Of a stretch of DNA of 64,000 bases, positions 33,786 through 56,998 are shown in pieces. The DNA lies in assembly GCA_016213405.1 (NCBI GenBank), contig JACRAM010000036.1, forward strand, positions 1 through 64,000. Direction: 5' to 3'. Under the pieces are notes generated by a model. The model did not search any database. It was not told the DNA's origin and worked only from the letters and a program-made list of their open reading frames with translations. The position numbers and the translations under genes were made by a program. The stretch is from Bacteroidota bacterium. Lineage in GTDB: Bacteria; Bacteroidota; Bacteroidia; Palsa-948. Each line of letters opens with the position of its first letter. The first letter of the stretch is position 1.

Positions 33786-35012
33786 TTATCTTATCAACGA
33801 AATATTCCCCTTCTGAAAAATTTCTTTCCCATCATTCATTATTGCCTTGAGGTAGTAAACATAAACTGCGGTTGGTGCATTTTTTCCATCCCATCCCATG
33901 TTTTGCTCACTACTTTCAAATACTTTCTCTCCCCAGCGATTGTAAATTTCTAAATGCATTTCTTTTATTGAACCCTTGACATACAGCATATCATTTTGTC
34001 CATCTCCATTCGGTGAAAAGGCGTTTGGAAAAAAAAGTGTTGTTTCAGGAGATACTGGCGTGGGAGTTACAAACACAGTAACAGAATCTGTATCATTACC
34101 GCAGGCAAAAGAATCGCTCACGACAACATAATAAGTTGTTGTCGTATTGGGTGATGTAACCGGAGTGGAACAAGTTGTACAATTTAATCCTGTAGAGGGA
34201 TACCAATTATAAATACCACCACCGCTTGCGTTGAGTGTGGTATTTTGCCCCTGTACAATTGAAACATCTGTCCCTGCATTTGCTGTTACTGATGGAGTTA
34301 CGGTAACATCATCAATATAATAATAATTCGCATAAGCATTTCCAGTTGGATGAAAATTTACAATTGTTGTACTATCATTTAGATAGAAATTTCCTATGGT
34401 CATAAACTGCTCCCCACCGTTGGCAATAAAATCATCTGTAATCAATATCCAATTCAAAGTATCAGAAATAACATTTCCCTTAGAATTATTAATCTGGGGA
34501 ATAAATGGGAGGTTAGAATAATTAGGGTCACTTTGTAATATACTGTTATTTGAAAAATATGCCCCAATCATATCAATTGCAAAAACCGCTTGATCGCCAA
34601 ATGACACATAAAAACTAACACAATATTTTTTCCCCGCTGTTAAAGTATCGACCAACTGCACTTCAAGGTATTCTCTTCCTTCAGTTAGCGGAGGCCAGCC
34701 ACCGGGATTAAATCCTGAAAATCCAGCATAACTGACACCAGTTCTTGCATATTGATAGCCGACAACATTTTGAGGAGCACTAACAAAAGGATTTGTAGAA
34801 CATGGATTATAATAATCCGTGCTGCTTGAATTTGTTGTATTACCTCCTCCATTATTTGGTTGAAACCACGGAACGGCATAATATATTTGACTGACATTAT
34901 TGGGGCAAGTATCATACTGCTCAAAACTATAATTAGGAACTAAGTTTTGAGAATAGAGATTATTAAAGCCACTAAGAAAATAATACAGTAAGATGTAAAG
35001 CGCATTTTTCAT
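33786..35012 (-). CDS. NLVPNYSFEQ-family protein with Ig-like and gliding-type sorting domains
   Basis: The 408-residue protein has a signal peptide (about 1-21), then NLVPNYSFEQYDTCPNNVSQIYYA, the domain shared with 3445-4464 and 2472-3444. An Ig-like unit follows (VTANAGTDVSIVQGQNTTLNASGGG, TTTYYVVVSDSFACG). The C-terminus is a type B gliding-motility domain (NAFSPNGDGQNDMLYVKG, VYVYYLKAIMNDGK). The same N-terminal domain is therefore attached to two different sorting-domain types in this genome. Confidence 0.82.
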   Translation of the reverse strand: MKNALYILLYYFLSGFNNLYSQNLVPNYSFEQYDTCPNNVSQIYYAVPWFQPNNGGGNTTNSSSTDYYNPCSTNPFVSAPQNVVGYQYARTGVSYAGFSGFNPGGWPPLTEGREYLEVQLVDTLTAGKKYCVSFYVSFGDQAVFAIDMIGAYFSNNSILQSDPNYSNLPFIPQINNSKGNVISDTLNWILITDDFIANGGEQFMTIGNFYLNDSTTIVNFHPTGNAYANYYYIDDVTVTPSVTANAGTDVSIVQGQNTTLNASGGGIYNWYPSTGLNCTTCSTPVTSPNTTTTYYVVVSDSFACGNDTDSVTVFVTPTPVSPETTLFFPNAFSPNGDGQNDMLYVKGSIKEMHLEIYNRWGEKVFESSEQNMGWDGKNAPTAVYVYYLKAIMNDGKEIFQKGNISLIR

Positions 35013-35077: not shown

Positions 35078-37831
35078 TTATTTCGTTACTGCGAGTTTGT
35101 TCGTCACTTCAAGTTGCCCGTTAATAATTATTTTATATAAATATATTCCCGAATATATGTCGGTTGTTGAAACAGAAACTTTATTTTCTCCCGGCACAAG
35201 CACATAACTGCTTATTTTATTTCCTATCACATCGTAAATTTCCAATGCGCCCGTTTCATTTTCTTCAAGCTCTGTTTCATATACCGCGCCATCTGATGTG
35301 GGATTAGGATACATTATGCCCACATTATCAATAGTTACAGGCATTTCCACCTCTTCTGAAAATCTTGCACTCAGAGGAGCGAAATCATTTACATCAATTC
35401 CAAGCATTACACGCGCATCGTAAACCCCAATGCCACCGGACAAAGGATTTTGCAACGCGATATTCTGCAAAGCCGCAGAATCAGCCGGGCTAAACGCATC
35501 AATATCATTCGCCCAACTGCGCAGAAATACATCATGAACTGTTTTATGATTCTGTTCTATCAGGTTATCAGCAGATATGCTGTTATTGACAATCGCTGCA
35601 TTGGAGAAATCATTCCTGGATATAAACTCCCGGGTTTTTTGTATCTTGCCCATGTTGGTATTCATCATGCTGTCATGAAAATTCTGAAGCACCGTATCCT
35701 CCGGTGTGCCAAGCAAATGCAGCAGTATAGTATCTTTTCTTATTTCTGACAGCGCAGTTTGCTTTGCCATAAACTGCATCTCAAAAGATGCCTGATTTAA
35801 GGGGGGAGTATTTTTTGCAATTTGCCCCAAAAGCTGATAGTTACATAATTGTGGAGGGAGGAAACAAGGATTACTGCAAGCATTAGTAGAAGGTACAGGT
35901 GGTGGTATAAGAATTGTATTGAATGGACTAATGATTTGGGGTTTATAAGGCAAACTGGAACTTTGAACATACCATGTCCTTTGTGTGTTAAAAATCCCCT
36001 TTACATCTGCATCTCTTCCAGCGAAAACATTCCATTGATTATCTGACGCAGAGGATGTAGTTCCCTGGTTTCCAATATCAGTATTTTCAAGGGTAACTCC
36101 TCGTTGGTTTAAATTAAGAATATTGCATTGAACAGTACTAGAAGGAAGATGATTGCCAAAGCAGCGAATGCCTGTTCCTGTTCTGTCAATTTGATTATTG
36201 GTTATCTGTGAAGTAGGACTGATGTCGGCAGATATTCCAAAAAGTTGAGTAGTGTAACTAGGTGTAGGATTATTATTGCCGTTGCGCTGTACAAGATTTT
36301 GGTTGATTGTAGCCCCTGTGGTGTTTTCTAAATGTATGCCGTATGAAATGAAAGAAGGAATCGAAGGAAGATAATATATTTTGTTCAAACTGCCGATATT
36401 GGCAGAAGGAATATTGGTGCCCCAGATTCCATTTTGAATGTTCTTAATATTGTTATTATGAACATAGGTGGAACCAGGAGATATGATTGCATTTTGCATT
36501 CTTATTCCTGTCTGTTTGTTTGCATTGCCTCCATTAATCGCATTAAATCCAATATCAATGGTACAGTTGTTTGTTTGTAACGTTTGAATTGCATTACCAC
36601 CAAAAGTTGATGCACCAAAATTTGTTATGGTATTATTGGAAATTGTTGCTGTGGTGTTGTTACTGGATGAAAAGAAAATACCATTTCTGACATTGGTCAG
36701 TTTGTTTCCCTTTATCAATACAGTTTTTCCATTAGTAGTTGTAACCCTGATAGAATTGGAAGGAATAATAGAGGAAGAATTAATATTAGTTAAAATATTA
36801 TTTTGCACATCCACATTAATATTCTGCTGGGCAAATATTGCATTCGAACAAACCTGTATGGTACATTTTTGCGTTGCAACAATACCGCCAACAGTCAGTG
36901 TGCGGTTTGGATTTCCTGTAGGATTTCCTGTAGCATGAATGGCAAATCCCACCGGAGGTGGATTACATTGACTGCCAGAGCAAGTTCCCAAAGCGCAGCA
37001 AATGGGTATTGCGACAATAGAAGTTTGTTGAATGTTATTAAATAAGTCATTAATGACGTTGACATTACTATTGGTGCTATGAATGCCTATATCCATATTA
37101 TCAAATAAATTTTTATTTGAAGCTCCTGTTATTCCTATGGTGATTGCATTTACATCTGTAATTTCAAATCCGCGAATAGTTCTGATTCCACTATGAGGAC
37201 TTATGAGTAATCCGCTACAAGTAAAGTTCGAACCTTGAATAGTGGCAGGTGTAAGTGCAGAAGTAGATGTTTGAACGACTACATGCTGATAATTTCTATC
37301 AAGTGTGGAATTTTCTATATGGAAAACCCCTCCGTTTGTAGAGAACACAGCATTTTGTGCATCTTGAACACGCGATCCAGCCTGTAATCGCTTTGCATAT
37401 TCTTTGGAAAAGTTTTTTCTTTTTCTTGCGAGCGATACTTCCTTAGAGTTGTCTTTACCAAATCCCCATGAGGTTACCATCCCGGCAAATCCCTGATTCG
37501 TTAAAGTCCAAAACGCCCATCCGCGTTTCACATCGGAGAACATATCAGGATGCTCATACACCACTCTCGCGTTTTTAAATAACTCACGGCTGTGAAGCGT
37601 AGACCGGATTTCTTTTTCCAATGCAGGGAATTTTGTCTGCACCACTTTGTAAAAATTTATCACTTCTCCGTTTTTGTCATTAATCACCTCCGTTTCTGAT
37701 TTCGGTTTGGCAAAGAATAATGCTCCTCCTCCGAAGAATGGCTCACAATACAATGTATGCGGAGGAATAAGCGACAATAGAATTTTCACCATTGTCTGCT
37801 TTCCCCCGTAGTATGTGATCGGTGTTTTCAT
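35078..37831 (-). CDS. Chimeric frame: Dam-type methyltransferase N-terminus fused to a T9SS beta-helix protein
   Basis: The 917-residue frame has two unrelated halves. Residues 1-150 are the start of a D12-class adenine methyltransferase. From about residue 151 (AGSRVQDAQNAVF, base about 37381) it is a right-handed beta-helix surface protein with many N/I/T-rich repeats (for example NTTATISNNTITNFG). It ends in a type A sorting domain (YPNPTSDGAVYETEL, SGIYLYKIIINGQ). The fusion is in frame, but there is no signal peptide, so the beta-helix part could not enter the T9SS route. It marks the left junction of the phage-like block, or an assembly chimera. Confidence 0.8.
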   Translation of the reverse strand: MKTPITYYGGKQTMVKILLSLIPPHTLYCEPFFGGGALFFAKPKSETEVINDKNGEVINFYKVVQTKFPALEKEIRSTLHSRELFKNARVVYEHPDMFSDVKRGWAFWTLTNQGFAGMVTSWGFGKDNSKEVSLARKRKNFSKEYAKRLQAGSRVQDAQNAVFSTNGGVFHIENSTLDRNYQHVVVQTSTSALTPATIQGSNFTCSGLLISPHSGIRTIRGFEITDVNAITIGITGASNKNLFDNMDIGIHSTNSNVNVINDLFNNIQQTSIVAIPICCALGTCSGSQCNPPPVGFAIHATGNPTGNPNRTLTVGGIVATQKCTIQVCSNAIFAQQNINVDVQNNILTNINSSSIIPSNSIRVTTTNGKTVLIKGNKLTNVRNGIFFSSSNNTTATISNNTITNFGASTFGGNAIQTLQTNNCTIDIGFNAINGGNANKQTGIRMQNAIISPGSTYVHNNNIKNIQNGIWGTNIPSANIGSLNKIYYLPSIPSFISYGIHLENTTGATINQNLVQRNGNNNPTPSYTTQLFGISADISPTSQITNNQIDRTGTGIRCFGNHLPSSTVQCNILNLNQRGVTLENTDIGNQGTTSSASDNQWNVFAGRDADVKGIFNTQRTWYVQSSSLPYKPQIISPFNTILIPPPVPSTNACSNPCFLPPQLCNYQLLGQIAKNTPPLNQASFEMQFMAKQTALSEIRKDTILLHLLGTPEDTVLQNFHDSMMNTNMGKIQKTREFISRNDFSNAAIVNNSISADNLIEQNHKTVHDVFLRSWANDIDAFSPADSAALQNIALQNPLSGGIGVYDARVMLGIDVNDFAPLSARFSEEVEMPVTIDNVGIMYPNPTSDGAVYETELEENETGALEIYDVIGNKISSYVLVPGENKVSVSTTDIYSGIYLYKIIINGQLEVTNKLAVTK
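37382..37831 (-). pseudogene. Truncated Dam-type (D12 class) DNA adenine methyltransferase
   Basis: The start MKTPITYYGGKQTMVKILL and YCEPFFGGGALFFAKP are motifs X and I of D12-class methyltransferases. The helical target-recognition part begins (GWAFWTLTNQGFAGMVTSWG), but the frame switches to the T9SS protein before the catalytic DPPY motif. The fragment should be inactive as a methyltransferase. It follows the RadC-methyltransferase gene in the same direction with only a GC-rich repeat between (about 37839-37861). Confidence 0.85.
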
Positions 37832-37870
37832 ACAGCCCCTCCCGACCTCCCCGAAGGGGAGGAGAATGGA

Positions 37871-39424
37871 TTACGCAGCTTTATTAAAGTTTAATTGTTT
37901 CAGTTCCTTTATTAATGAATCTATCTCCCTTCCCTTCAGGAAGGGTTGGGGATGGGCTCTTTCAATATTTTTCTCAGCAATTTTGCAGTAAGATTTTTTT
38001 CCTTCTATGCCGATGAACTTTCTTCCAAGTTCTATGGCTCTTACGCCTGTCGTGCCTGTTCCGCAAAAGGGATCCAGCACGATTCCATTTCTCGGGCATC
38101 CGGCAAGAATGGGCTTTGTAATCAGTTCTCCGTTAAAGGCTGCGTAATGTTTCTCATGATTCGGCTTGGTGGAAATGCTCCAATAGTCCGTCACGTCTCC
38201 CGGATTCTTACCGAGCGGGTTCAGCTTTATCTTTTTTCTTTTTCCTCCTCCCTTGATTCCTTTTCCAAAAGGTCCCTTTGGATTTTTTGGATCTCCTCCG
38301 TAAGCCGTCATGTCGTAATTGACTCGCTCGATGGAAGATGCTTTGTAAGGAGCGCGCACGGCATCCAAATCGAAATAATAATCTTTCCTTTTTACTAGCA
38401 GAAAAATATGTTCGTGCTTTTTTGAAAAACGGTCTCGCACGCTTTCGGGAAGGGAATTGGGTTTTGCCCAGATGATGTCGTTGCGTACAATCCATCCCCG
38501 CTTGGCGCACCCGATGGCGAAGCGATGGGGAATTAACGTAAGTGATTTATGCAAAAGTTTATTTTTCTTGTGATTGTTGGCAATCTTGGGAGCAGCTTCC
38601 GCTTTTCTCATTTTATTTTTCTTCGCTTCTTTCAAATCCTGCCCGCTTCCGTTTCCGCTTCCGAAAAAACTATCGCCAAGATTCACCCATACTGTTCCTC
38701 TCGGTTTTAGCACACGCTTGATTTCATCCATGAGCAGGTAGAGATTGTCGAGGTATTCCATATAGGTGGGCTCCAGCCCCCATTGTCCTTTCCATCCATA
38801 ATCCCTGAGCTGCCAGTAGGGAGGTGAAGTAATCACGCAGTCGATGCTTTCGTCAGGAAGGTCTTTCATTACCCCCAGCACATCTCCGCAGAGAATGGAA
38901 TTTGCGATAAGTTTTTTATGAATACCGTCCAACCCGTACATCATTCCCTGATCAGCGAATGAAAAATATTCTGTCGGAGTAACAATGATATGGTCAAGTA
39001 AATCAACTTCGAGCAGTTTTCCAGCTTGTTTTAGCCTGTTGGTAATCTCCCTGTCCGCTACACTTGGTGAAATATTTCCGCTGGGATGATTGTGCGCTAC
39101 AATGATGGCGCTTGAAAGAGATTTTACGGCAATTGAAAAAATAAGTTTGGGATCTATGACTGTTCCGCTTACTCCTCCCGTGCTGAGATGATAATACCCG
39201 ATGATGCGGTTCATGCGGTTGAGATAAAGCACTACGGCATGCTCTCGGACATTAATTTCATCCTTGCCGATGACTCTCCGGACAAATTCAGCCACTTCAC
39301 CGGGCTGGGTGACTTTACCATGGAACTTTTTTTCCGAAGGGTTAAAAATAATTTTCACTTCGGGAATATTTTTCTCGAGAACAGAACCAAGTCCGGCATC
39401 TTTCCTATACAATGCTCCGTGCAT
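37871..39424 (-). CDS. RadC/JAMM domain fused to a beta-class DNA methyltransferase
   Basis: The first part (about 45-170) is a RadC-type JAMM domain: VREHAVVLYLNRMNRIIGYY, then AHNHPSGNISPSVAD with the HxH...D metal site. The second part is a DNA methyltransferase with motif IV TSPPYWQLRDYG before motif I LDPFCGTGTTG, the order of beta-class N4-cytosine or N6-adenine enzymes. I chose ATG 39424, which leaves 13 bases after the previous gene; ATG 39478 is possible but overlaps it by 41 bases. The C-terminus includes an in-frame GC-rich repeat (HPQPFLKGR). RadC domains are frequent on mobile elements, and the fusion suggests phage- or plasmid-type anti-restriction or repair. Confidence 0.85.
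   Translation of the reverse strand: MHGALYRKDAGLGSVLEKNIPEVKIIFNPSEKKFHGKVTQPGEVAEFVRRVIGKDEINVREHAVVLYLNRMNRIIGYYHLSTGGVSGTVIDPKLIFSIAVKSLSSAIIVAHNHPSGNISPSVADREITNRLKQAGKLLEVDLLDHIIVTPTEYFSFADQGMMYGLDGIHKKLIANSILCGDVLGVMKDLPDESIDCVITSPPYWQLRDYGWKGQWGLEPTYMEYLDNLYLLMDEIKRVLKPRGTVWVNLGDSFFGSGNGSGQDLKEAKKNKMRKAEAAPKIANNHKKNKLLHKSLTLIPHRFAIGCAKRGWIVRNDIIWAKPNSLPESVRDRFSKKHEHIFLLVKRKDYYFDLDAVRAPYKASSIERVNYDMTAYGGDPKNPKGPFGKGIKGGGKRKKIKLNPLGKNPGDVTDYWSISTKPNHEKHYAAFNGELITKPILAGCPRNGIVLDPFCGTGTTGVRAIELGRKFIGIEGKKSYCKIAEKNIERAHPQPFLKGREIDSLIKELKQLNFNKAA
37926..37957. repeat. GC-rich palindromic repeat in frame in the RadC-methyltransferase gene
   Basis: CCCTTCCCTTCAGGAAGGG and a following GGGGATGGGC belong to the same loose repeat family as the copies at 43488-43520 and 43561-43615. 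It encodes part of the C-terminal tail after the last methyltransferase motif. Confidence 0.55.
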
Positions 39425-39437
39425 GATTTTAACCTGT

Positions 39438-39641
39438 TTAAGTTGTGTTAAGGTCAGGCGAGTTGTTATTGTCGTCATCGTCCTTTTCAAATGCTTTGGC
39501 AATGGCTTCCCCGATGACCGCACCGAAAAAACCACCGATCATTACGAACGGCACGGCATCTTTCTCGGCATGCTTCGCATAGAGGTAGCTTGCCAGCGAT
39601 GCGACAAGAGTGGCGGTGGATACAATTAATTTTTCCTTCAT
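39438..39641 (-). CDS. Small glycine-rich membrane protein
   Basis: The 67-residue protein has two hydrophobic segments (LIVSTATLVASLASYLYA and VPFVMIGGFFGAVIGEAIA) and an acidic, Asp/Asn-rich tail. The GxxxG-like spacing suggests helix packing in a membrane. It lies at the end of the lysis-like group, 3 bases from the coiled-coil protein gene. It may be a holin-like or virion-membrane protein; no family was recognised. Confidence 0.6.
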   Translation of the reverse strand: MKEKLIVSTATLVASLASYLYAKHAEKDAVPFVMIGGFFGAVIGEAIAKAFEKDDDDNNNSPDLNTT

Positions 39642-39644
39642 GGT

Positions 39645-40295
39645 TTATCTTTTTCCTGTAAGCATATCATGAACTAAAAATCCTGTCAAGACCATCGCTC
39701 CACATACAAGCAGGCGGGACCGGAAGGTTTTTTTTCGGAGTTGTTTGCTTGCTTCGTTCAGATTATCTGCAAGGGTTTTCTGCTGCTGAAGTGAATTATC
39801 CAGCAGATTTTTCATTTCAGAATAACTCTTTTCGCAAATACTGAAAGAAGAATCCCTGTTTTGAACCTGTGCAGTTAGAAGGACAATCGTGCTGCCGCAT
39901 AAACTGTCGCGTTCTGTAGATTGCACAAGCAGATTTGTCACTTCTGATTTTAGTGAATCACAGTATGCCAGTTTGGAAGCGGTGTCGGTTTCAATTTTTT
40001 GTTTTTCAATCGTAGCATTAATTTTATTCTGAAGCGCAAACACTTTTGATTTGGATTTCTTCAGTTTCTCCTTAGCATACTTCACAGCAAATTCCAAACT
40101 GTCGTTTTCCCGAAGAAGCAGATGCACAGTCTGCCGGTATTCGTTGTCAGTTTTCTCTTTTTGTTTCTGAATGATTGTTATTTTCTTTTTAGTGACATCC
40201 TGTTTTGCAGGCGGTGTCTGCTCAGGCGTAACAAGGTTGTAGGTGCTGAGGGTAATCAGTGTAAGAATCATTAATAAGCCGATAAGTTTTTTCAT
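39645..40295 (-). CDS. Coiled-coil protein with N- and C-terminal membrane segments (spanin-like)
   Basis: The 216-residue protein starts with a hydrophobic segment (MKKLIGLLMILTLITLSTYNL). A long Lys/Glu/Gln-rich coiled coil runs from about 35 to 185. A C-terminal membrane segment follows (LLVCGAMVLTGFLVHDML). The start overlaps the holin-like gene by 4 bases (ATGA), so translation is coupled. Position next to a holin-like gene and an amidase resembles Rz-type spanins, but two membrane segments are atypical. An internal bridge between membranes is inference. Confidence 0.6.
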   Translation of the reverse strand: MKKLIGLLMILTLITLSTYNLVTPEQTPPAKQDVTKKKITIIQKQKEKTDNEYRQTVHLLLRENDSLEFAVKYAKEKLKKSKSKVFALQNKINATIEKQKIETDTASKLAYCDSLKSEVTNLLVQSTERDSLCGSTIVLLTAQVQNRDSSFSICEKSYSEMKNLLDNSLQQQKTLADNLNEASKQLRKKTFRSRLLVCGAMVLTGFLVHDMLTGKR

Positions 40296-40564
40296 GGTTG
40301 TTTTTCGTTTTGATTGTTAAGGTTTGATTTTGCCTGCCCGTCCGGCAGTCGGGTTTTTCGTTCAATAGAGTAACCGAAGCATCCTGCTCCCACCAAACTC
40401 ACAAAGGAGTAGAACATATATTCGGGAACTACAATTCCAAAAAACTGTTCTCCAATCCAGCTGATAATGGTGATCGCTACAAAGACCAGCGTGACCACTT
40501 CCCGCAGGTTGTAGCTTCCGTCCTTGTCTTTGAGAATTTCTTCCAGAAAGTTTTTCTCGTTCAT
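40292..40564 (-). CDS. Holin-like small membrane protein
   Basis: The 90-residue protein has a polar N-terminus (NFLEEILKDKDGSYNLREV) and two transmembrane segments (VVTLVFVAITIISWIG and MFYSFVSLVGAGCFGY), then a charged tail with two short repeats. The size, topology and neighbourhood (amidase, coiled-coil spanin-like protein) fit a phage holin. No named holin family could be assigned. Confidence 0.6.
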   Translation of the reverse strand: MNEKNFLEEILKDKDGSYNLREVVTLVFVAITIISWIGEQFFGIVVPEYMFYSFVSLVGAGCFGYSIERKTRLPDGQAKSNLNNQNEKQP

Positions 40565-40579
40565 CGGGTGAATTCTTTT

Positions 40580-40780
40580 TTACCAGATGAGCCCCATCAG
40601 CCATTTGAAAAACCCCTTTCGGTTGGGCTGAATCGCAACAACAATGTTGATGTTGGTGATGCTGATCACATCGCCCTGTGGTTTTGGAGAAGGAGCGGGT
40701 GTTTGGGCAATCGTGTGAAGAACGATTTTGAAAATATTCTCCATGAAATTGTTTTCTGTTTTTCTGTTTTTTGTTTCCAT
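40580..40780 (-). CDS. Small hypothetical protein with C-terminal hydrophobic segment
   Basis: A 66-residue frame; an internal start (MENIFKIVLHTIAQ, 40744) is also possible. It has a proline-rich middle and a short hydrophobic end (GFFKWLMGLIW). Its place in the operon, between the L,D-transpeptidase-like and holin-like genes with short gaps, supports a real gene. Its function is unknown. Confidence 0.45.
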   Translation of the reverse strand: METKNRKTENNFMENIFKIVLHTIAQTPAPSPKPQGDVISITNINIVVAIQPNRKGFFKWLMGLIW

Positions 40781-40804
40781 TGGTTTTTTGTTTTTTGGTT
40801 GTTA

Positions 40805-41467
40805 TTAATTGTGATCGTATTCGTTGTATGCCCATATCCCGAGACCGAGCGTCAGCGTTCCGATGAGAATTCTTCTCAAACTTTCCCTGCGTATCGCCCT
40901 AAAGTCAATCAGCGTATAGGTGAAGTTGTTTCCGTACAGTTTCCGGTGCCTCTCGCAGAGTTCCATAAACTCGTAAAAGTTCTCTGCGTTTTCAAAGACC
41001 TGGCATCCTGCGGAAAATTTTTCGATGAATTTTGTTTTTCCCTGTGCGAGAGCACGGTGAATGTTGATCCCGAAAACTCCCGTCAGCTTCGTTCCGTTCA
41101 GAAAATCGAGATAAGCGTTGCGGTCGTAATCGCGGAGAATGGTTACAGGTTTTTTCTGAACAAGGGCTTTATACTTTCCTTTATGCAGCCCGATTTCATA
41201 CGCATCTGCGTATTGCCCCTGTGCGAGTATGGCTGTGCCCTGCGGTTCGGTTGGGTTTTCCAGCCAGTAGGTGCCGGGGTCAGTAGTTGCTTTATATATA
41301 TGATAGTTCCATTTACCATTTGTTGTTCTGTAGAACACATGTATCTCATCATCGAAACGATTCGCGAGAACGCTTTTTGAACGAAGCCCCACGATGTTGA
41401 GTTCGTAAGGGCGCGTGTGAAGCGTAAACTTTTTCCTTCGGAGTATGGATTTCATGCGCGAGAGCAT
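40805..41467 (-). CDS. L,D-transpeptidase-like (YkuD-type) protein
   Basis: The 220-residue protein has GVFGINIHRA followed about 14 residues later by FSAGCQVF, which resembles the YkuD H...SxGC active site with a catalytic cysteine. Beta strands before it (YELNIVGLRSKS, DEIHVFYRTTNGKWNYHIY) fit that fold. A C-terminal hydrophobic segment (ILIGTLTLGLGIWAY) would anchor it. YkuD enzymes form or break 3-3 peptidoglycan links. Next to an amidase and a peptidoglycan-binding protein, a role in local wall remodelling during particle entry or exit is likely, though not proven. The start overlaps the previous stop. Confidence 0.65.
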   Translation of the reverse strand: MLSRMKSILRRKKFTLHTRPYELNIVGLRSKSVLANRFDDEIHVFYRTTNGKWNYHIYKATTDPGTYWLENPTEPQGTAILAQGQYADAYEIGLHKGKYKALVQKKPVTILRDYDRNAYLDFLNGTKLTGVFGINIHRALAQGKTKFIEKFSAGCQVFENAENFYEFMELCERHRKLYGNNFTYTLIDFRAIRRESLRRILIGTLTLGLGIWAYNEYDHN

Positions 41468-41940
41468 CAGGCAGCGAGATTTTGTTCTTCTTCGCCCTCA
41501 TCATTCTGCTTGGTCAGAACATCGGGAACATAATTCTTCAGCCATTCCCTAACATCGAAACTCGGACATGCTTTTTTCACTTCAGGAAAATCCCTGTGTC
41601 CGAGAATCTTTGCCTGCGGATATTTCTGTGATAACTGAAAAAGTTTTTGGAACATGGATTCCTTCTGTGCATCCGTGCGGTTGTCAATGGGGTTATTGTC
41701 TTTATCAACTCCCCCGATGTAAGCGATGTGGATGCATTCTGCATTATGCCCGTATGCACCGTAACTTTTTTGGGCTTCAGCAAGCAGCTTCACTATTTCT
41801 CCGCTTCGCTTGATGATGTAATGGTAGCCCGGTGTGTCTCCCCATCCGCGCTCTTCTTTCCAGAATTTTTTGATTGCCTCCAGCGTAGCCGAAGGCGGTG
41901 TGGCGGTGCAATGCACCACGATAAATTTTATGTTTCTCAT
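41467..41940 (-). CDS. N-acetylmuramoyl-L-alanine amidase (amidase_2 / T7 lysozyme type)
   Basis: The 157-residue enzyme cleaves the bond between MurNAc and the stem peptide. Zinc ligands are visible: His in FIVVHCTATP (residue 10), His in ILGHRDFP and the Cys in ACPSFDVREWL. GYHYIIKRSGEI and HIAYIGGVDKDN are typical of phage endolysins such as T7 lysozyme. There is no signal peptide, consistent with a holin-dependent endolysin or a virion-borne hydrolase. The start overlaps the upstream stop by 4 bases (ATGA). Confidence 0.92.
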   Translation of the reverse strand: MRNIKFIVVHCTATPPSATLEAIKKFWKEERGWGDTPGYHYIIKRSGEIVKLLAEAQKSYGAYGHNAECIHIAYIGGVDKDNNPIDNRTDAQKESMFQKLFQLSQKYPQAKILGHRDFPEVKKACPSFDVREWLKNYVPDVLTKQNDEGEEEQNLAA

Positions 41941-42836
41941 AGATGTTTTATAGTTTTTGTTTCGACTAAAAAATTTTCTCCGTTGTTTTCAAAAGCGGTG
42001 TAGCCGTCCCGTTCGGTGATTTCTGTTCCGAGAATCATACCCGCAGGAACTTTTATTCCTTCGCGGGGACTTTTCCAAACCACTGTTTTTTGGTTGGTGA
42101 TGATAGCGGGACCTTCAATGCCCGAAAGCGACCATTTGCTTCCGTCATACTTCAGTCCCATGCGCGAGAACTCCAGCCGTATCTGCTGTTTCTGCTTGTC
42201 ATCTGAAAAACTGTCAAGCAGCCCATTCACTAAGGTTTGCCTTACTCCGCGAAGCGGATATTTTTTGAACTCTTCGCTCGCGGCAGAATAATCTTCTCTG
42301 CTTTTCATTCCCCGAAGCGTGAAGAGAACCTGTGCAAGATTTTTATTCACGGCATTTTTATAGAGCGTTTTGGCTACTTCGGAAGCGTTGATGGCATTTC
42401 CTTTAGTCAGCACGTTGAAGGTGCTGTCATCAATTTCTTCCGGCAGATTCAGTTTCTTCAGCGCATTCACTGTTTCGCTTCCGAAATCTCCGTCCGCACC
42501 GTACTTGGGCAAAATTCTTTTTCCGTACTTGGCGATGAGTGACTGCTGAAGCGTTTTCACTTTCGCTCCTTTGCTCCCTTTCTTTAGAGGAAAATCATCA
42601 TTGCGGGGAGTAGTGTTAGAAGGAAGAAAAGAACTCTGCTGAGGAGGAGAAGGAATTTTGAACGATGAATCGTCTTCCTGTTCTTCTTCCTTTTTAGCAC
42701 GCCTTGTTTTCCACCACTGCCATCCGAAATATCCCCCGATACCGGCAACCGCAGTTCCCAGCCCGAAGAGAATAATGCGTTTCTTCTTTTTCTTTTTATC
42801 CTCAGAACTAATTGTCTTTTCGTTTTTCATTTTCAT
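41937..42836 (-). CDS. Membrane-anchored peptidoglycan-binding protein with SH3-like end
   Basis: ATG 42836 (MKMKNEKTIS, 299 residues) overlaps the upstream stop as ATGA, so I prefer it to the longer frame. After a lysine cluster there is one transmembrane segment (about 21-42). A peptidoglycan_binding_1 domain follows (LKKGSKGAKVKTLQQSL, GADGDFGSETVNALKKL; about 84-130). Residues about 151-225 are helical with a spacing that weakly recalls an annexin repeat lacking GTDE. The end (about 240-299) looks SH3-like. It probably ties the particle or its membrane to the cell wall. Confidence 0.8.
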   Translation of the reverse strand: MKMKNEKTISSEDKKKKKKRIILFGLGTAVAGIGGYFGWQWWKTRRAKKEEEQEDDSSFKIPSPPQQSSFLPSNTTPRNDDFPLKKGSKGAKVKTLQQSLIAKYGKRILPKYGADGDFGSETVNALKKLNLPEEIDDSTFNVLTKGNAINASEVAKTLYKNAVNKNLAQVLFTLRGMKSREDYSAASEEFKKYPLRGVRQTLVNGLLDSFSDDKQKQQIRLEFSRMGLKYDGSKWSLSGIEGPAIITNQKTVVWKSPREGIKVPAGMILGTEITERDGYTAFENNGENFLVETKTIKHL

Positions 42837-43552
42837 GCTTTTGGTTTTGAAGCGATAATTTTTATATATGGGAGATATTCCCACGCTTCGAGTTCGCCTT
42901 TCAGATCATCCAGCATATTGCTGTTATAAAGTTTCCAGTAGGCTTTTGCTGTTTCAAGAAAAGCAGCCTGCGAAGGAATTTCTGTGAACACCGCTTTGAC
43001 GGCATCTTCATCCGTACCGGGGAAGGGACCATACGTTTTATCAAAAGCAGACTTGAGCCGCTTCGCCCATTCTTCGTACTGCTTGCCGGAATCGACAGGT
43101 TTTCCTCCTTTCTTCTCCGGCTTGCTGGCGATGATGGAAAGCATTTCATTGTACTGGGTGCTTTGCAGTTCATCGCTCATGTCATTGAACAAATTAGAGT
43201 TGTACAATTTTTTATAGGACTTCGCCACTTTGTTCATTTCTTCTTTGCTCGGAATTTCCCTCAATGCCTTTCGGAGTTTTTCTGTGTCTGTTCCAGGCCA
43301 TCCGTCATTTTCAAATGCCATTTTGACCTGCTTCGCCCATGTCGCGGGCGTATTTTCTTCCAACGTTTTATTTTCTTCTTTGTTAGCAATGCCTTTTCGC
43401 ACGATATGCCTTCCGAGAAAAAAACTTCCTGTCAGCACAACTATGCTTCCCAATCCGTAGAGGATTTTTTCTTTGAGCGTAAATGATGCCCCACCCTCGC
43501 CCTCCCCATTGGGGAGGGAACTATTTTCTCTTATTTGTTTTGTCGCATTCAT
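42833..43552 (-). CDS. Membrane-anchored protein with two annexin-like repeats
   Basis: The 239-residue protein has one transmembrane segment (about 28-50) and two about 75-residue repeats (about 72-143 and 161-234). Each has (F)PGTD at the start (86-89, 178-181), a KLYNSN(L/M) segment and an acidic residue about 41 positions after the Gly (E128, E220). In repeat 2, GTDEDAVKAVF and LYNSNMLDDLKGEL parallel the GTDEE...LFGRDLLDDLKSEL pattern I recall for annexin A5, including the calcium-site residues. Annexins bind acidic phospholipid via calcium. In this operon a membrane-contacting role is plausible. The N-terminus carries an in-frame GC-rich repeat. Confidence 0.75.
   Translation of the reverse strand: MNATKQIRENSSLPNGEGEGGASFTLKEKILYGLGSIVVLTGSFFLGRHIVRKGIANKEENKTLEENTPATWAKQVKMAFENDGWPGTDTEKLRKALREIPSKEEMNKVAKSYKKLYNSNLFNDMSDELQSTQYNEMLSIIASKPEKKGGKPVDSGKQYEEWAKRLKSAFDKTYGPFPGTDEDAVKAVFTEIPSQAAFLETAKAYWKLYNSNMLDDLKGELEAWEYLPYIKIIASKPKA
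43488..43520. repeat. GC-rich palindromic repeat in frame near the N-terminus of the annexin-like protein
   Basis: CCCTCCCCATTGGGGAGGG is a near-perfect palindrome and encodes SLPNGEGEGG at residues 12-21. A related intergenic copy with GGGGATGGGC lies at 43561-43615. Confidence 0.6.
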
Positions 43553-43617: not shown

Positions 43618-43797
43618 TTATACTCCCAACTTTTGTTTTGCAATAGCCAGCTTGATGGGATTGCTCACCACCTCGGATAATTTTTGCAGTTCCTTTGCGC
43701 TGAGTTTGGAAGAAAGCACAGCAAGCGATTTCATTTTGGAATCGGCTTCCGATTCGGCAGACGCTTCGATGGTTAGGTCGTAGTTAAATTTTTTCAT
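43618..43797 (-). CDS. Small protein, paralogue of the next gene upstream
   Basis: The start at ATG 43797 (MKKFNYDLTIEASAESEADSK) gives 59 residues; the longer frame begins inside the neighbouring gene. It shares MKKF(N/Y)YDL(T/S)(I/F)EA with the 101-residue protein at 43835-44140. It ends VSNPIKLAIAKQKLGV, a helical tail. The two look like duplicated small virion or scaffold proteins. No family name is known to me. Confidence 0.65.
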   Translation of the reverse strand: MKKFNYDLTIEASAESEADSKMKSLAVLSSKLSAKELQKLSEVVSNPIKLAIAKQKLGV

Positions 43798-43834
43798 AAA
43801 ATGATTTTTAATCGGTTGGATATTTGAAAAAGAC

Positions 43835-44140
43835 TTATTCTTCTTTTGGTTTGTCATGCAGTCCAAGCAAATCCGCTATCGCATCTATGCTGTCAGCGTC
43901 CTGCGTCATGTGCTGAAGTATTTTTCCTACCGTTTCAATTTTTCGCGCAAAACACATAAGTTGTATTTCTTCTTTAGTTGAACTTCGTACATTTTGAAGT
44001 GGAAGTGGTTGATCCTTCAACCCGTTTGTTTTTAAATCTGCGATGCATTTGGGAAGAAGCTGTTCGAGAGAAAACACTTTCATCTCTGCCTCTTTCTCCG
44101 ACTGTGCTTCAAAGGATAAATCGTAATAGAATTTTTTCAT
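43835..44140 (-). CDS. Small hypothetical protein, paralogue of 43618-43797
   Basis: The 101-residue protein starts MKKFYYDLSFEAQSEKEAEMK, matching the N-terminus of the next small gene. The remainder is helical and acidic (FARKIETVGKILQHMTQDADSIDAIADLLG). It lies 3 bases from the coiled-coil protein gene, so it is in the same operon. The function is unknown. Confidence 0.65.
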   Translation of the reverse strand: MKKFYYDLSFEAQSEKEAEMKVFSLEQLLPKCIADLKTNGLKDQPLPLQNVRSSTKEEIQLMCFARKIETVGKILQHMTQDADSIDAIADLLGLHDKPKEE

Positions 44141-44142
44141 GA

Positions 44143-44955
44143 TTATTTTTGTTGTTGGGATTCTTGTTTTAGGTTCAGCATAGAAGCAACCGTTTTGATG
44201 TTCTCTGTATTCTCCCCCAGCGCATTCACGATGTCGAGAACGGCTGCCATCTGTTCTTCATCGAACTGATCTTCCAGTGCGCGGATAAATTCGAGGTGGC
44301 GTTTGTCTTCTTCGGAAAGCGTATTATTTGTCTCAGCAGTTTTTTTCTGAAAGGTGGTTTCTCCTTTTTTCTCTTCTGAACCCGAGAGTGTTTTTCCGTC
44401 TGAAGATTTATTCCCGAGAAAGTGAGGAAGCACCTCTTTGATCAGGGTATTTCCCAAATCCTTCATATCATCGCCTTTCCCTTTTTCTTCCAGCTGCCTG
44501 GTGAGAATTTCTATATAGTTTTCCGCTTGCTGTAATTTTTGGTTCGCGGTTTCGAGTTCTTTTTTTACTAGTTCGGCATCCCATCGTTCTTTTGCCACGG
44601 TTACCTGCTCGGTGATTTGTGTTTTAATGTCCTCTGTTCCACTTAAGAGTTCCGCTTTCTTCGGCTCTTCTTTTTTTTCTTCTTCAAGCAAAAAAACATG
44701 GCGGCTCAACGGGCGGGGAGATTTTGCGGAAGTGGTGTATATCTGAACCACGACTTCCTTCACATCGTCATAGAGGTATTCTTCATAGGTGTCAAAATCA
44801 TCGAGGCTGTTGGTCTTTTCCACCACTTTGAGATTGTCCACATGGATTTCATAGTAGCGCGGGCTTCCTTTGATGGCTTTGCCTTCGAGGAACTGTTTTA
44901 TTTTTTCCAGTTTGATGGGATCGTACTTTTCTATTTTCTCGTATGGTTTTTCCAT
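44143..44955 (-). CDS. Hypothetical coiled-coil protein of the phage-like operon
   Basis: ATG 44955 (MEKPYEKIEKYDPIKLEKI) is preferred over a TTG nine bases upstream, giving 270 residues. The N-terminal half is mixed alpha/beta (YYEIHVDNLKVVEKTNSLDDFDTYEEYLYDD, VVVQIYTTSAKSPRPLSRHVFLLEEE). The middle is a coiled coil (about 135-170), and the C-terminus is acidic and helical (ALEDQFDEEQMAAVLDIVNALGENTENIKTVASMLN), similar in style to the end of the 101-residue protein that follows. It could be a scaffolding or minor structural protein; this is inference. Confidence 0.65.
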   Translation of the reverse strand: MEKPYEKIEKYDPIKLEKIKQFLEGKAIKGSPRYYEIHVDNLKVVEKTNSLDDFDTYEEYLYDDVKEVVVQIYTTSAKSPRPLSRHVFLLEEEKKEEPKKAELLSGTEDIKTQITEQVTVAKERWDAELVKKELETANQKLQQAENYIEILTRQLEEKGKGDDMKDLGNTLIKEVLPHFLGNKSSDGKTLSGSEEKKGETTFQKKTAETNNTLSEEDKRHLEFIRALEDQFDEEQMAAVLDIVNALGENTENIKTVASMLNLKQESQQQK

Positions 44956-44964
44956 TTTTCTCAA

Positions 44965-45282
44965 TTATTTTTTCGGTATCACCTGTATGAATCGCAGGTG
45001 ATTGATCGTGGATGAATAGTTTTTAACGATGATTTCTCCCTGATGCTCGTACTGCATTTTGTTCGCGTTCTGAAAGCTAAGGTCAAATACACCTGTCTCG
45101 GAAGAAACGCTCACATCGTCTGCATCTTCACCGAGAAAGTAGAACTGGTTGTAGGCAGAAATGATTTTCGTTTCCAATGGCTGAAGAGCGAGGTGTTCTA
45201 TTCGCGGCACATAGTTTTTTCCGATTCCCAGTTCTTCCATCCGCTGGGGGATGATGTATTCGAGTGCGATTTCGATTGTCAT
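44965..45282 (-). CDS. Small beta-rich structural protein candidate
   Basis: The 105-residue protein has a short helical start (MTIEIALEYIIPQRMEELG), then alternating strands (LQPLETKIISAYNQFYFLG, VSVSSETGVFDLSF, GEIIVKNYSSTINHLRFIQVIPKK). It ends in a hydrophobic strand, as do the three preceding proteins of the operon. A small jelly-roll or other virion beta-sandwich fold is my guess. Confidence 0.6.
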   Translation of the reverse strand: MTIEIALEYIIPQRMEELGIGKNYVPRIEHLALQPLETKIISAYNQFYFLGEDADDVSVSSETGVFDLSFQNANKMQYEHQGEIIVKNYSSTINHLRFIQVIPKK

Positions 45283-45330
45283 TTTCTTTTTTGTATTTTT
45301 TCTTTTTGCCTATTGCCAATTGCCTACTGC

Positions 45331-45900
45331 TTACTTTTCAATCGCGTACCATACATACACATTCACCCTGTAATTAAAATCATGTCCCCGCTCTTCTCCG
45401 AACCTATCGCGGTACGTTCCGCTCAGCACGTAGGAATTATCATCCACCAGAACGAGGTCTTCGAGGAATTTTTCTCCGTGCGTAAAAACCTGCGGTCTCC
45501 AAAAACCGGTTTGAGAGAAATCTCCGTAGCCTGCATTCGCATCCGTGAGTTTCACATCGGTGGAGTAGAATAAATTCGAGGGACCGTGGCTTTGCAGCCT
45601 CAGTTCCCCGGCAATCGGAGTGTGGCGGAAGAAAAGCCCTCCTGAAGGAGCTACTGCCGCGAAGGGTGGGTCTATTCCTGCAAAGGGTACTCCCGCTATC
45701 GCTATTGCCGAACCCGGCAGGGGAAAACCAGGCGTTACAACGGCTCTTCCGGCAGGCGCTCCTGCTAATCCTTCGATGCCTTTCACCGTAGACTCGATGC
45801 CGATAATTTTTTTTGCATCGGAAGGAAGTTTTATCTGAAAAGAATTTATTTCTCCTTTCTTCGTCACGGGCACCGTATGTATGATTACTTTTTCTTTCAC
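45331..45900 (-). CDS. Beta-rich structural protein candidate
   Basis: The 189-residue protein begins with strands (KVIIHTVPVTKKGEINSFQIKLPSDAKKIIGIES). It has a Gly/Ala/Pro-rich central loop (about 45-85), then LRLQSHGPSNLFYSTDVKL. It ends NYRVNVYVWYAIEK. The register N-terminal (K..F.(L/I)..D...(V/I).GI.S) and C-terminal (YRV..Y...(A/C)(I/E)) echo the 127-residue neighbour, so they look paralogous. Capsid-type single jelly rolls are one explanation. An intergenic CCTACTGCTTAC repeat abuts its stop codon. Confidence 0.6.
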   Translation of the reverse strand: MKEKVIIHTVPVTKKGEINSFQIKLPSDAKKIIGIESTVKGIEGLAGAPAGRAVVTPGFPLPGSAIAIAGVPFAGIDPPFAAVAPSGGLFFRHTPIAGELRLQSHGPSNLFYSTDVKLTDANAGYGDFSQTGFWRPQVFTHGEKFLEDLVLVDDNSYVLSGTYRDRFGEERGHDFNYRVNVYVWYAIEK

Positions 45901-45911: not shown

Positions 45912-46295
45912 TTATTGCATTTCTGTTTTTTCACAGAGGAAATAATACGACACGCGGTAGGGCCGGAAGAAGGTGAGTTCGTTGGGCACATCCTTGAAAT
46001 CCACTTTGATGCTTTTGTTGCCAGAAGACACATCGCCCAAATCATAATACCTTGCATTCACATCCGAGTTGACTCCCGCCATCAGGCGTTTGCTCTCGTA
46101 GTTATCGGGAAAAAATTCCTCGCGGTTGATTTCAATACGCTGTTCGCCCCGTGCGTAAAGCAAATCATCGCGGCTGCTGGAAATTCCCACGCCTTTGACC
46201 GTGGTAATGTCTTTGTCTAATTCAAAAGTTTTGGAGAACGTTTTATTCTCCTGCGTGACATCGAGGTCAAATCGTTTATGTACAATCTTGCTCAT
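45912..46295 (-). CDS. Beta-rich structural protein candidate
   Basis: The 127-residue protein runs KRFDLDVTQENKTFSKTFEL, TTVKGVGISSSRDDLLYARG, SIKVDFKDVPNELTF, then FRPYRVSYYFLCEKTEMQ, which is mostly beta strand. It lacks a signal peptide or membrane segment. It resembles the 189-residue protein immediately downstream and may be its paralogue. The gap between the two genes is 11 bases. Confidence 0.6.
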   Translation of the reverse strand: MSKIVHKRFDLDVTQENKTFSKTFELDKDITTVKGVGISSSRDDLLYARGEQRIEINREEFFPDNYESKRLMAGVNSDVNARYYDLGDVSSGNKSIKVDFKDVPNELTFFRPYRVSYYFLCEKTEMQ

Positions 46296-46402: not shown

Positions 46403-47134
46403 TTACGGAGTCGTCATCGTTCCGTGCAGTCCTGCCCACACATTTGTGTTTGCTGCGATTCCGTCCATCGTTCCGAGTTCGAGCGTAAGCTCCACCAGGA
46501 TGTCATCGTGAATCAGGCGCGGGTTGGCGAGTTTGTAATACCCTGAAGTCACGCTGTGGAAGTTGCGGGTTTTGAAAACTTCATTGCTGGTTCCATCGGG
46601 GATCAATTGCTTTTTATTCGCCTTGAGTCCGAATTCCCCGTTGGCAATCGCTGGAAACATCTCGATGAGGTCATAAGGTGCAGCCATCATTTTGTCGGGG
46701 GTTGCATCCGCAGAAACTCCTGCCAGCAAAATGATTCCGCTCACCAGCATCGCTTGGTTCTTCGGGAGTTTCGCGTTGGAGATGTTCCTCAAGCCCGTTT
46801 GCTTGTCGTCCTGCGTTTCAAACATCTTGATGGTTTTGCTCGTCACGGGTTTGATGGAGTAGATCACCGTGTCCGCGAGGCGCAGTTCTCCTTTTCGCAG
46901 CCCTTCCTGAATGTGCTTTGGCAGTTCGGAAAAATGTTTTTCCATTTCAGCGCGTGAGCCGCGGCTCGCAGGAGGAAGTGCCGCGAGTTTGTTCACGGTG
47001 CGCTGCCGTTGCAGCGGGTTCATTTTGCGGAGTGCGCCAAGAACTTCACCGAGAAGTTCATCGTTGTCTCCGTCCAGTCCAATCAAGGCTCCCTGATTGG
47101 TGTACTGTTCAGTTGCTTCTAATTGTTCTAACAT
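46403..47134 (-). CDS. Candidate major capsid/coat protein (unrecognised family)
   Basis: The 243-residue protein has a helical N-terminal arm (about 25-85, ALRKMNPLQRQRTVNKLAALPP) and a beta-rich remainder (LADTVIYSIKPVTSKTIKMF, PKNQAMLVSGIILLAGVS, DILVELTLELGTMDGIAANTNVWAGLHGT). No motif for an enzyme is visible and there is no signal peptide. It heads the run of four small beta-rich genes. As the largest soluble beta protein in the structural section it is the best capsid candidate, but I did not recognise it. Confidence 0.5.
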   Translation of the reverse strand: MLEQLEATEQYTNQGALIGLDGDNDELLGEVLGALRKMNPLQRQRTVNKLAALPPASRGSRAEMEKHFSELPKHIQEGLRKGELRLADTVIYSIKPVTSKTIKMFETQDDKQTGLRNISNAKLPKNQAMLVSGIILLAGVSADATPDKMMAAPYDLIEMFPAIANGEFGLKANKKQLIPDGTSNEVFKTRNFHSVTSGYYKLANPRLIHDDILVELTLELGTMDGIAANTNVWAGLHGTMTTP

Positions 47135-47270: not shown

Positions 47271-47930
47271 TCAGTAGTTCCTTTCAGTTGGATCCAACGC
47301 TCCCATTTCTGAATCGGAATCAGGAGAACCTTTCATTTCCTGTTTTTGAATGAACTCCTCTCCGCTTTTCGCAACAAGTTTTTCGATAGTGTCCATTGCG
47401 CTCATGTCGGGTTCTTTTTCATCTGCTCCTTCGAGTACTTTTTTCTCTTCCGAGGGATGAATGAAATACTGCACTTCGCCCACACCGTTTGTGCCTTCTT
47501 TTTTCTCATCATTCTTTTCTTCCTTTTTCTTCCCCTTCAACACTTTATCCAGCCATAATTTTTGCTGAATGTTTTCTTTGAAGGAAAGCACGCGCTCTTT
47601 CGCGCCTTCGAGCAAATCCTGTTTATCCTCCGTGCCGTTCACGCCCGGTTTCTGATACGTGCCGGAAGCCATCATGCCGAGACCGAAGATGGAAGCGAGA
47701 CGGCTTTTGGTATAATGACCTATGCCCGTGATCACCGCTCCGACTGCGAGGGATGCCCTGCCGAGCGCCGCTCCCACGACTCCACCACCGAGCGCACCGA
47801 CCACAACATCTTTCACCGTTTCAATCGCGGTGTTTTTCAAATCACCTTTTGTCTCGAGGTCTTTGGTGATGCCTCCAAGCAGTTTTTTCTTCTTTGCTTC
47901 TTTTTCGTATGTGTTGGTTGATTTTTCCAT
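47271..47930 (-). CDS. Glycine-zipper membrane protein of the phage-like operon
   Basis: The 219-residue protein has a basic N-terminus and a hydrophobic, Gly/Ala-rich stretch (about 37-92: VVVGALGGGVVGAALGRASL, GLGMMASG) with GxxxG spacing, as in glycine-zipper membrane proteins. The C-terminal half is highly charged (Lys/Glu) and ends in MGALDPTERNY. It may be a virion-membrane or pore-like protein. It lies between the transglutaminase-like and coat-candidate genes. Confidence 0.6.
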   Translation of the reverse strand: MEKSTNTYEKEAKKKKLLGGITKDLETKGDLKNTAIETVKDVVVGALGGGVVGAALGRASLAVGAVITGIGHYTKSRLASIFGLGMMASGTYQKPGVNGTEDKQDLLEGAKERVLSFKENIQQKLWLDKVLKGKKKEEKNDEKKEGTNGVGEVQYFIHPSEEKKVLEGADEKEPDMSAMDTIEKLVAKSGEEFIQKQEMKGSPDSDSEMGALDPTERNY

Positions 47931-48012
47931 GTCGCTTGGTTTTTAATTTTGATTTTAATTTTTTTATATTTTTATTTTTTTACTGTCTACTGTTTATTGT
48001 CTACTTCATTCC

Positions 48013-49620
48013 TCAAACGAGTTCCACATTTTTCTTTTTGTCCTTACTGTCATGTTTCTTTTTCTTTCCCTTCAATCCTGAAAGTGCGGGCTGCGGGGAA
48101 GTATTTTTTTTTGGTTTGGTCACGTAGCGGTACCCGGCATAGAGCAGGCTCAGACCGATGACTCCCCCGATTCCCCACAGCGTTGGCTTGAGCCATTTTT
48201 TATTGTTTGCCCAGAATCCTTTTGGTTTGCTTCCATCGCCCGAATCTTCTCCGCTCCCGTCTGTTTTTGCAACTTCTTTTTTGTTGGTTGAAGAATCAGT
48301 TCCATCTTCTTCGATAGTCAGAGCGGTATCATCTGATTTTGAAGCGGGAAGATGTTGCGCCTGTTCTGCTACAGCAGCATCTTCTTTTTCTGTGTTCTCA
48401 AAATCTTCCGAGCCTTTTTCTTTTTTCGGAAAAATATTTCCGATGCCTTTGAGAAGCCCCGCAATAGCAGCGAGCACTCCTGTGGCAGAAGCGATTGTAG
48501 CAGCCGTCACAGGTTCTCCGAGTTCACCGAAGCCCTCAAACCCTTCCATGCCTTCCACGTTTTCGGATGTATAGATGTCTTCTCCGATAAGCTGGGGAAG
48601 AGGAGTGCGTTCGTTCATCTCGAACACCGTCCCTTCCGGCATATATCCGAACAACCCCGCCACTTCTTTATTCTTGTTTCCTTTTCCTGTGAGGATTGCT
48701 TTCTTGAGGTTTTCCTGTTTTCCGCCTGCACCGTAGAAAATCTTTTCCAGTTTGTCTTTTATCGTTACGAGTTTTTTCCATTTACTGATGTCTCCGCCCT
48801 GTTTCTGCAGTTCCGCTTCGCTGGCATATGCCCACTTGATGCGCTGTGCGATTTTGAAAATGTTGAGTTTCATCGAAGCGAGTATCCCGTTGCGAAGCAT
48901 GACGGTTGCGGGATTAAGTTTATTGGTGGCGTGAAGGACTTTTTTGAAAAATCCTTTTCCCTTCCCTTTTGCTTTCCCCTTTTTTCCGAGTCCGTCAAAG
49001 TCGTCCCCATCGTAGGGTTCTTGCAACTGGGTCTCGCTGAATCCGTCTAAGTAGTGTAAGTCCATTTTTGTGTCTTGTTTTTCTGTGTATGGTTCTTCGT
49101 AATCGAATTTGTCCACCACGCAGTCGAGCGTGATGTAGTTGAATCCTGTTCCGCTATCAGCGGGATTTTCTGTCCGCACCACCGGATAGATGTGCTGGAA
49201 GTAGTTGTTTTTGTACTTCGTTATCCGCAGTACAATGCTGCCGATATCCACATCGCAGTTGAGCAGCAATCCGCAGATGGTGACTGTGTAACAATCGCAA
49301 TCCACCCCGCGAAATCGGTCATGCCATAACCGCGCGGGAGAACGGACCTGTTCCAGCCCGGCTTCGTTCTTGTGATAGCGGACGTGCGTGTAGATGAACT
49401 CCCATATATTCCGGCATGTTTCATAAACTGTTTCTCCTTTTAGTTGCTCTGCAATTTTTTCTGTCTGCCATTTTGTTTCCTGCACGACTTTCGGAATGAA
49501 CTTCACCGTATCGTCAACAGTCGCTCCGCGCTTCACCGTTTTCTCGGTGAGGTTGGGCTTGGGAAACAGTTTGTCATATTCCTTTCCCTCGCATATGTAT
49601 CTTTCTTTCTTAGCCTGCAT
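48013..49620 (-). CDS. Transglutaminase-like protein with C-terminal membrane anchor
   Basis: The 535-residue protein has a transglutaminase-like cysteine-peptidase fold at about 65-170. A Cys-His-Asp triad can be proposed in the right order: FRGVDCDCYT (C108 or C110), YFQHIYPVV (H143), ITLDCVVD (D166). A Lys/Gly-rich linker (KGKAKGKGKGFFKK) precedes a helical region. Next comes GEPVTAATIASATGVLAAIAGLLKGIG and finally a transmembrane segment (LWGIGGVIGLSLLYAGYRYV) with a basic tail. It could process or cross-link virion proteins; this is inference. It overlaps the LEA14-like gene by 11 bases. Confidence 0.75.
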   Translation of the reverse strand: MQAKKERYICEGKEYDKLFPKPNLTEKTVKRGATVDDTVKFIPKVVQETKWQTEKIAEQLKGETVYETCRNIWEFIYTHVRYHKNEAGLEQVRSPARLWHDRFRGVDCDCYTVTICGLLLNCDVDIGSIVLRITKYKNNYFQHIYPVVRTENPADSGTGFNYITLDCVVDKFDYEEPYTEKQDTKMDLHYLDGFSETQLQEPYDGDDFDGLGKKGKAKGKGKGFFKKVLHATNKLNPATVMLRNGILASMKLNIFKIAQRIKWAYASEAELQKQGGDISKWKKLVTIKDKLEKIFYGAGGKQENLKKAILTGKGNKNKEVAGLFGYMPEGTVFEMNERTPLPQLIGEDIYTSENVEGMEGFEGFGELGEPVTAATIASATGVLAAIAGLLKGIGNIFPKKEKGSEDFENTEKEDAAVAEQAQHLPASKSDDTALTIEEDGTDSSTNKKEVAKTDGSGEDSGDGSKPKGFWANNKKWLKPTLWGIGGVIGLSLLYAGYRYVTKPKKNTSPQPALSGLKGKKKKHDSKDKKKNVELV

Positions 49621-50231: not shown

Positions 50232-50423
50232 TTACTTTCTTTTTATTCTTCCGCTGATGAAATCGGTTGTGAGTTTAAAAACCATCCATATGATTCCACC
50301 GACTGCCGCTTTCATCGCATACTCCGCCAGCCCCGAGTAATCGAGGTTGGCGAAGAGGATGGCTCCGGTGAGAAAAATGCTGGAGCTGTCGGTATTGGTG
50401 GGATGATTTGTTTTCACTTCCAT
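50232..50423 (-). CDS. Small membrane protein
   Basis: ATG 50423 (MEVKTNHPTNTDSSSIFL) gives 63 residues; the open frame continues to 50591 but runs into the next gene. There are two hydrophobic segments (SIFLTGAILFANLDYSGL and AAVGGIIWMVFKLTTDFI) and a basic tail. It resembles virion-membrane or holin-like proteins, but no family is assigned. Confidence 0.6.
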   Translation of the reverse strand: MEVKTNHPTNTDSSSIFLTGAILFANLDYSGLAEYAMKAAVGGIIWMVFKLTTDFISGRIKRK

Positions 50424-50562
50424 TTTTTGTTTGCGTCTAAAGCGGTTCTTGTCCTGATTCAAGCACAAAGGTCTGGCGATTTTAGTTCTCACTTTCCGGG
50501 TTCTCGGTGATGAGCAGGGTTGAAAAAATATTTCACGGGATTTTTTGGGTTTGGAAACTTTT

Positions 50563-50793: not shown

Positions 50794-50795
50794 GA

Positions 50796-51645: not shown

Positions 51646-51646
51646 T

Positions 51647-52275: not shown

Positions 52276-52310
52276 TGCATTTCATAGATTATATAGTTAG
52301 ACATTATTTT

Positions 52311-56997: not shown

Positions 56998-56998
56998 T

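Follow-up and report, generated by a model that had tools for sequence, protein, structure and literature searches.

An in-frame methyltransferase/beta-helix chimera as the probable scar of a deletion at the edge of a Bacteroidota provirus

A stretch of 64,000 nucleotides from a Bacteroidota bacterium (the window in what follows) contains a long minus-strand open reading frame that starts as a DNA methyltransferase and finishes as a protein of the type IX secretion system (T9SS). Is such a frame a working fusion gene, a product of incorrect assembly, the natural edge of an inserted element or the mark of a deletion? The first-pass annotation of the sequence described an in-frame chimera of a D12 methyltransferase and a T9SS beta-helix protein with a switch at about residue 151, and took it to be either a recombination junction or a misjoin. 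The Pfam matches and homologue alignments described here confirm the chimera, and a real deletion junction is now favoured, a misjoin being less likely. The locus comprises:

35078..37831, minus strand: chimeric open reading frame, D12 methyltransferase at residues 1 to ~151 and T9SS beta-helix protein at ~155-917 (Pfam and homologue alignments)
37383..37831, minus strand: 5' part of the D12 methyltransferase gene, FGGG kept and DPPY lost (Pfam, homologue alignment)
37370..37382, minus strand: breakpoint interval between methyltransferase-like and beta-helix-like sequence (DNA and protein alignments)
35078..37369, minus strand: 3' part of the beta-helix gene with the T9SS C-terminal sorting domain (comparison with contig C127, Pfam)
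33786..35012, minus strand: host CHU_C protein and native neighbour; its counterpart after the C127 beta-helix gene shares 36% identity with it
37837..37869, plus strand: REP-like dispersed repeat between the RadC-methyltransferase and D12 genes, with 89-97% similar copies on several other contigs
37871..39535, minus strand: RadC-JAB / N4-N6 methyltransferase fusion, which also lies directly upstream of D12 in intact copies (C6, G013)

The frame encodes 917 amino acids and has no internal stop. Its PF02086 match (residues 7-125, 8e-16) covers just positions 1-128 of the 253 in the profile, and the methyltransferase part scores below the NCBIfam dam cut-off. At the other end Por_Secre_tail (PF18962) is matched above cut-off at residues 840-914, and the second part also has a weak match, below cut-off, to Pfam Beta_helix (E 3e-4). 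In the same genome and 60 relatives, strong methyltransferase homologues cover residues 1-151, with a few reaching 160-172, and are themselves complete frames of about 265-315 amino acids; beta-helix homologues begin to align at residue ~146-155 and come from longer frames. Alignments made with C6, G013, G006, G049 and C127 put the end of methyltransferase-like similarity at ~37382 and the start of beta-helix-like similarity at ~37370-37375, so that the junction itself stands but lies on, or slightly beyond, the left border of the span 37380-37400 first given for it. Across it GC3 passes from ~0.45 to ~0.2-0.3. Chance falls far short of explaining the switch in homology, but it could by itself explain the retained frame.

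Both halves are broken, as had been proposed. The first is related to the D12-class (Dam-like) N6-adenine DNA methyltransferases (PF02086, PHROG_56), with ~75% identity to intact proviral homologues over an N-terminal half that retains the SAM-binding FxGGG region (FGGG; CEPFFGGGALFFA). It differs from them in ending at ~151 of ~285 residues, without the C-terminal half and without the catalytic DPPY, a motif that was seen in all six aligned homologues and falls past the break. The second half resembles the T9SS cargo beta-helix proteins of C127 and C70 in its C-terminal sorting domain, its putative, weakly matched beta-helix repeats and its CHU_C-type neighbour. Unlike these it has no signal peptide: compared with the C127 homologue, whose N-terminus looks signal-like when inspected by eye, the first ~130 residues are gone and methyltransferase sequence stands in their place. 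Export through Sec precedes type IX secretion. Because it has neither DPPY nor a Sec signal, the fused product would most likely be inactive as a methyltransferase and remain unsecreted, judging from what is established for D12 enzymes and type IX secretion.

On either side of the junction the genes stand in their native order. In C127 a protein of ~330-400 amino acids comes after the beta-helix gene, matching the order to the left, and the succession of RadC-methyltransferase and D12 to the right is that of C6 and G013. Both sides also hold sequences with further copies on many contigs elsewhere in this genome. Among these, T9SS sorting-tail coding DNA at 32074-32320 is ~70-80% identical to copies in many other contigs and is thus a strongly multiplied cassette. 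An IS21-type IstB helper ATPase gene is found at 30997-31743, ~5.6 kb left of the junction. GC content, ~37% before the junction, reaches 42-48% in the block that begins there and returns to the host level, 33%, at ~53.5 kb. To the right of this block, three consecutive genes (55032-57952) would, as read from their sequence, encode a VWA-domain protein, a PP2C-like phosphatase and a protein kinase, a possible TerY-P-like triad.

The block runs from 37.38 to ~53.4 kb, and from the repressor to the D12 methyltransferase its genes are in the same order as in about 20 further members of a single provirus family. Beyond the genes given above it contains:

39645..43552, minus strand: membrane and lysis module with transmembrane proteins, PHROG_3000, amidase, peptidoglycan-binding and annexin-like proteins
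43618..45900, minus strand: conserved small provirus proteins p82, p101, p273, p105 and p189
45912..46295, minus strand: conserved 127-aa protein adjoining the putative capsid gene
46403..47134, minus strand: putative jelly-roll capsid protein, 243 aa, the most conserved protein of the family
47271..50155, minus strand: p219, transglutaminase-like protein (similar to gp34 of Salisaeta icosahedral phage 1) and LEA-like protein
50232..53387, minus strand: early/regulatory end with HTH proteins and an M78-type repressor, the usual right end of the family

Family members share the order repressor and HTH, LEA-like, transglutaminase-like, p219, the 243-aa protein, p127, p189, p105, p273 and annexin-like; then come peptidoglycan-binding protein, amidase, PHROG_3000, membrane proteins, methyltransferase genes, an AAA ATPase and, in several copies, a serine integrase. 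The present copy is a collinear member of the family represented by C6, G013 and G049, and at the junction its ATPase, terminal genes and integrase end are absent. Several other copies have a single giant protein of 1600-2100 amino acids in place of the separate methyltransferase genes (L100-L107, large frames of 1700-2131 aa). The other near-complete copy in this genome, on C6, carries a transglutaminase-like gene broken into two frames (L055, 3651-5234) and no integrase was seen adjoining it; this copy, too, may be in decay. An L[SN]G processing motif was suspected in the element proteins and dropped, the enrichment being too small.

The fate of D12 in these other copies proved informative. 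Among 33 such genes 30 are full length (275-290 aa), two run off the end of a contig and a single one is a fusion with the downstream ATPase; a D12 that ends at residue 150 occurs only in the present copy. The fused case, in another provirus (L222, 17908-19944), is an in-frame product of 678 amino acids. Wherever a copy with D12 extends far enough, the ATPase gene comes next, followed by small genes and, in several, a serine integrase beyond. As intact copies continue past D12, the junction is better seen as a scar that removed the end of the element than as its natural end. The earlier proposal that it defines the left end of the foreign block therefore holds for what remains of the block, and fails for the element as such. 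The full methyltransferase and beta-helix genes were also searched for, as had been suggested: the 3.65-Mb assembly contains distinct paralogues but neither the missing 3' part of D12 nor the ATPase belonging to this copy nor the beta-helix 5' part. Beta-helix paralogues lie on the short contigs C127 (3.0 kb) and C70, D12 paralogues on C6, C50 and C59, and the ATPase on C6 only.

We consider it probable, at roughly 0.7, that the junction arose when one deletion, ~3 kb or longer, joined two genes on the same strand, the D12 gene of the provirus and a beta-helix gene of the host. The size is based on C6 for the remainder of D12, the ATPase and p404, and on C127 for ~390 bp of the beta-helix gene. 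Before the event, the D12 end of the provirus would have pointed towards a neighbouring T9SS beta-helix gene of the host; since both genes read on the minus strand, one simple deletion suffices. This deletion would have removed the 3' half of D12, the ATPase and terminal genes, including any integrase and the attachment end, and the first ~390 bp of the beta-helix gene. What was left of the two genes would then have been joined in frame by chance, and the fused product would have started from the D12 start codon. Since a frame is kept in one such event in three, selection need not be invoked. Loss of the element end should ground the provirus. A single deletion, taking place in a living cell, is most likely the route by which this arrangement arose. 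Some observations count against the deletion reading: the frame is free of decay, the exact junction is absent in other genomes and viral contigs, and the undeleted state was not seen. An open frame without signs of decay implies that the event was recent or that the join is artificial. DNA searches of genomes of the same genus found neither the flanks nor any synteny or undeleted locus. The junction is comparable to the deletion fusions between phage and host genes known from decayed prophages, sharing with them the loss of terminal genes, the joining of unrelated genes and a product that is likely dead; it differs in that the frame is kept and the undeleted parent is not seen.

If the join is artificial, a provirus end and a beta-helix gene from different places, organisms or strains of the sample were wrongly connected by the assembler. 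The genome is in 127 contigs, with paralogues of both genes scattered over several of them (C127 and C70; C6, C50 and C59), and the fusion is seen nowhere else, all of which would suit a misjoin. However, the 25-mer at the junction occurs nowhere else in the genome, even when up to three mismatches are allowed, and hence there is no repeat to guide a wrong join inside this genome. A chimera of two species is made less likely by repeats of this same genome on either side of the junction, REP-like in the provirus and T9SS-tail copies in the host DNA, and the missing halves are on no orphan contig. A misjoin would also need to have hit upon the right strand and frame. Furthermore, at a true dispersed repeat the assembler stopped rather than joining through. 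This repeat, ~138 bp long, occupies bases 1-138 at the left end of C36 and is found in a dozen other contigs, mostly at their ends. Taken together, these points make a misjoin unlikely, though it deserves to be kept in mind. The dispersed sequence itself is probably the end of an insertion element, and another copy (C59, 9635-9772) breaks a further D12 methyltransferase at residue 18. The resulting overlap of C59 with C36 was considered as a second chimera and rejected, as it consists of the repeat found at many contig ends.

The shift in GC and gene content at the junction could also be expected if the element had simply integrated into the beta-helix gene, by insertion or site-specific recombination, and the junction were its attachment end. 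We regard this as very unlikely, given that intact copies run beyond D12 with the ATPase, more genes and often a serine integrase, and that the 5' part of the beta-helix gene is neither at the other end of the block nor anywhere else. Nor do the element ends in relatives bear long direct repeats; when the flanks of intact elements were scanned for long attachment repeats, none turned up, as expected if the serine-integrase cores used are short. It is more improbable still that the frame is a selected fusion gene in which the methyltransferase N-terminus serves as a working module of a surface protein. Its 917 open codons would fit such a gene, but without a signal peptide the T9SS sorting domain should be unable to act, and the architecture is confined to one genome. 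Homologues with the same fusion, which would have spoken for a genuine gene, were sought in the same genome, in the relatives and among the 33 D12 genes of other copies, and none was found; the one fused D12 is joined to its own next gene. The exact junction sequence had no match in GTDB contigs or IMG/VR, where records of this genome may be missing. A deletion thus remains our preferred reading of the locus.

What kind of provirus was truncated is suggested by its 243-aa protein. This protein has no match in Pfam or PHROG, none among 50,697 phage records and a single one in IMG/VR (2.9 million viral contigs), and yet it was found at 144 loci in GTDB contigs. Among the best 80 of these loci, 79 have titles naming a Bacteroidota taxon and one says just 'bacterium'. 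It was matched in 35 of 395 sampled genomes of the host's class, and the carriers include cultured strains of Chitinophaga, Puia and Niastella, among them Puia dinghuensis, Chitinophaga eiseniae and a Niastella sp. An AlphaFold2 model built from 58 sequences (pLDDT 75), which replaced a useless one from two sequences (pLDDT 31), has an N-terminal helical part followed by a beta-rich domain. Among solved structures its best matches are viral jelly-roll capsid proteins (EhV-201, 1.6e-4; SPV1, 3.5e-4; FLiP penton, 8e-4), with TM-scores of 0.2-0.5, at most about 0.5. The best match in BFVD is to I1ZBH9 (2.5e-6), a 211-aa protein without a name, which we suspect to be a protein of Salisaeta icosahedral phage 1 (SSIP-1). 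A profile search of PDB sequences returned only noise. On the basis of the model, the 243-aa protein is predicted to resemble viral jelly-roll capsids and is presumed to be the capsid protein.

Other genes point to the same phage. The transglutaminase-like protein of the family matches the structural protein gp34 of SSIP-1 at 2.7e-12 and the AAA ATPase, deleted in the present copy, matches the structural ATPase gp40 at 4e-13, both E-values being for a search space of 34 proteins. In one copy a large protein is 45% identical over 188 amino acids to the giant structural methyltransferase gp43. The capsid family has no significant sequence match among the SSIP-1 proteins (best gp45, E 0.06). SSIP-1 is a tailless membrane phage, barely like anything known in sequence, with capsid proteins that are thought to be of the single-jelly-roll type (PMC6356626, PMC6260650, PMC4958249); in 2019 it was described as having almost no similarity to GenBank sequences (PMC6356626). 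Its genome is circular and 43.8 kb long, whereas the family elements are ~20-25 kb and integrated. With the gp34, gp40 and gp43 matches and a predicted jelly-roll capsid, a temperate, tailless and SSIP-1-related nature seems likely. The block may well be a copy of a large and largely unrecognised family of such jelly-roll-capsid viruses across Bacteroidota, distant relatives of SSIP-1, and the family is apparently missing from phage collections.

The fusion is best viewed as an ordinary scar of provirus decay, and its annotation as a bifunctional protein is unwarranted. What makes it valuable is the grounded provirus to which it points, a copy from a common family. If the members of this family are tailless membrane viruses, SSIP-1 would gain temperate relatives in culturable strains.
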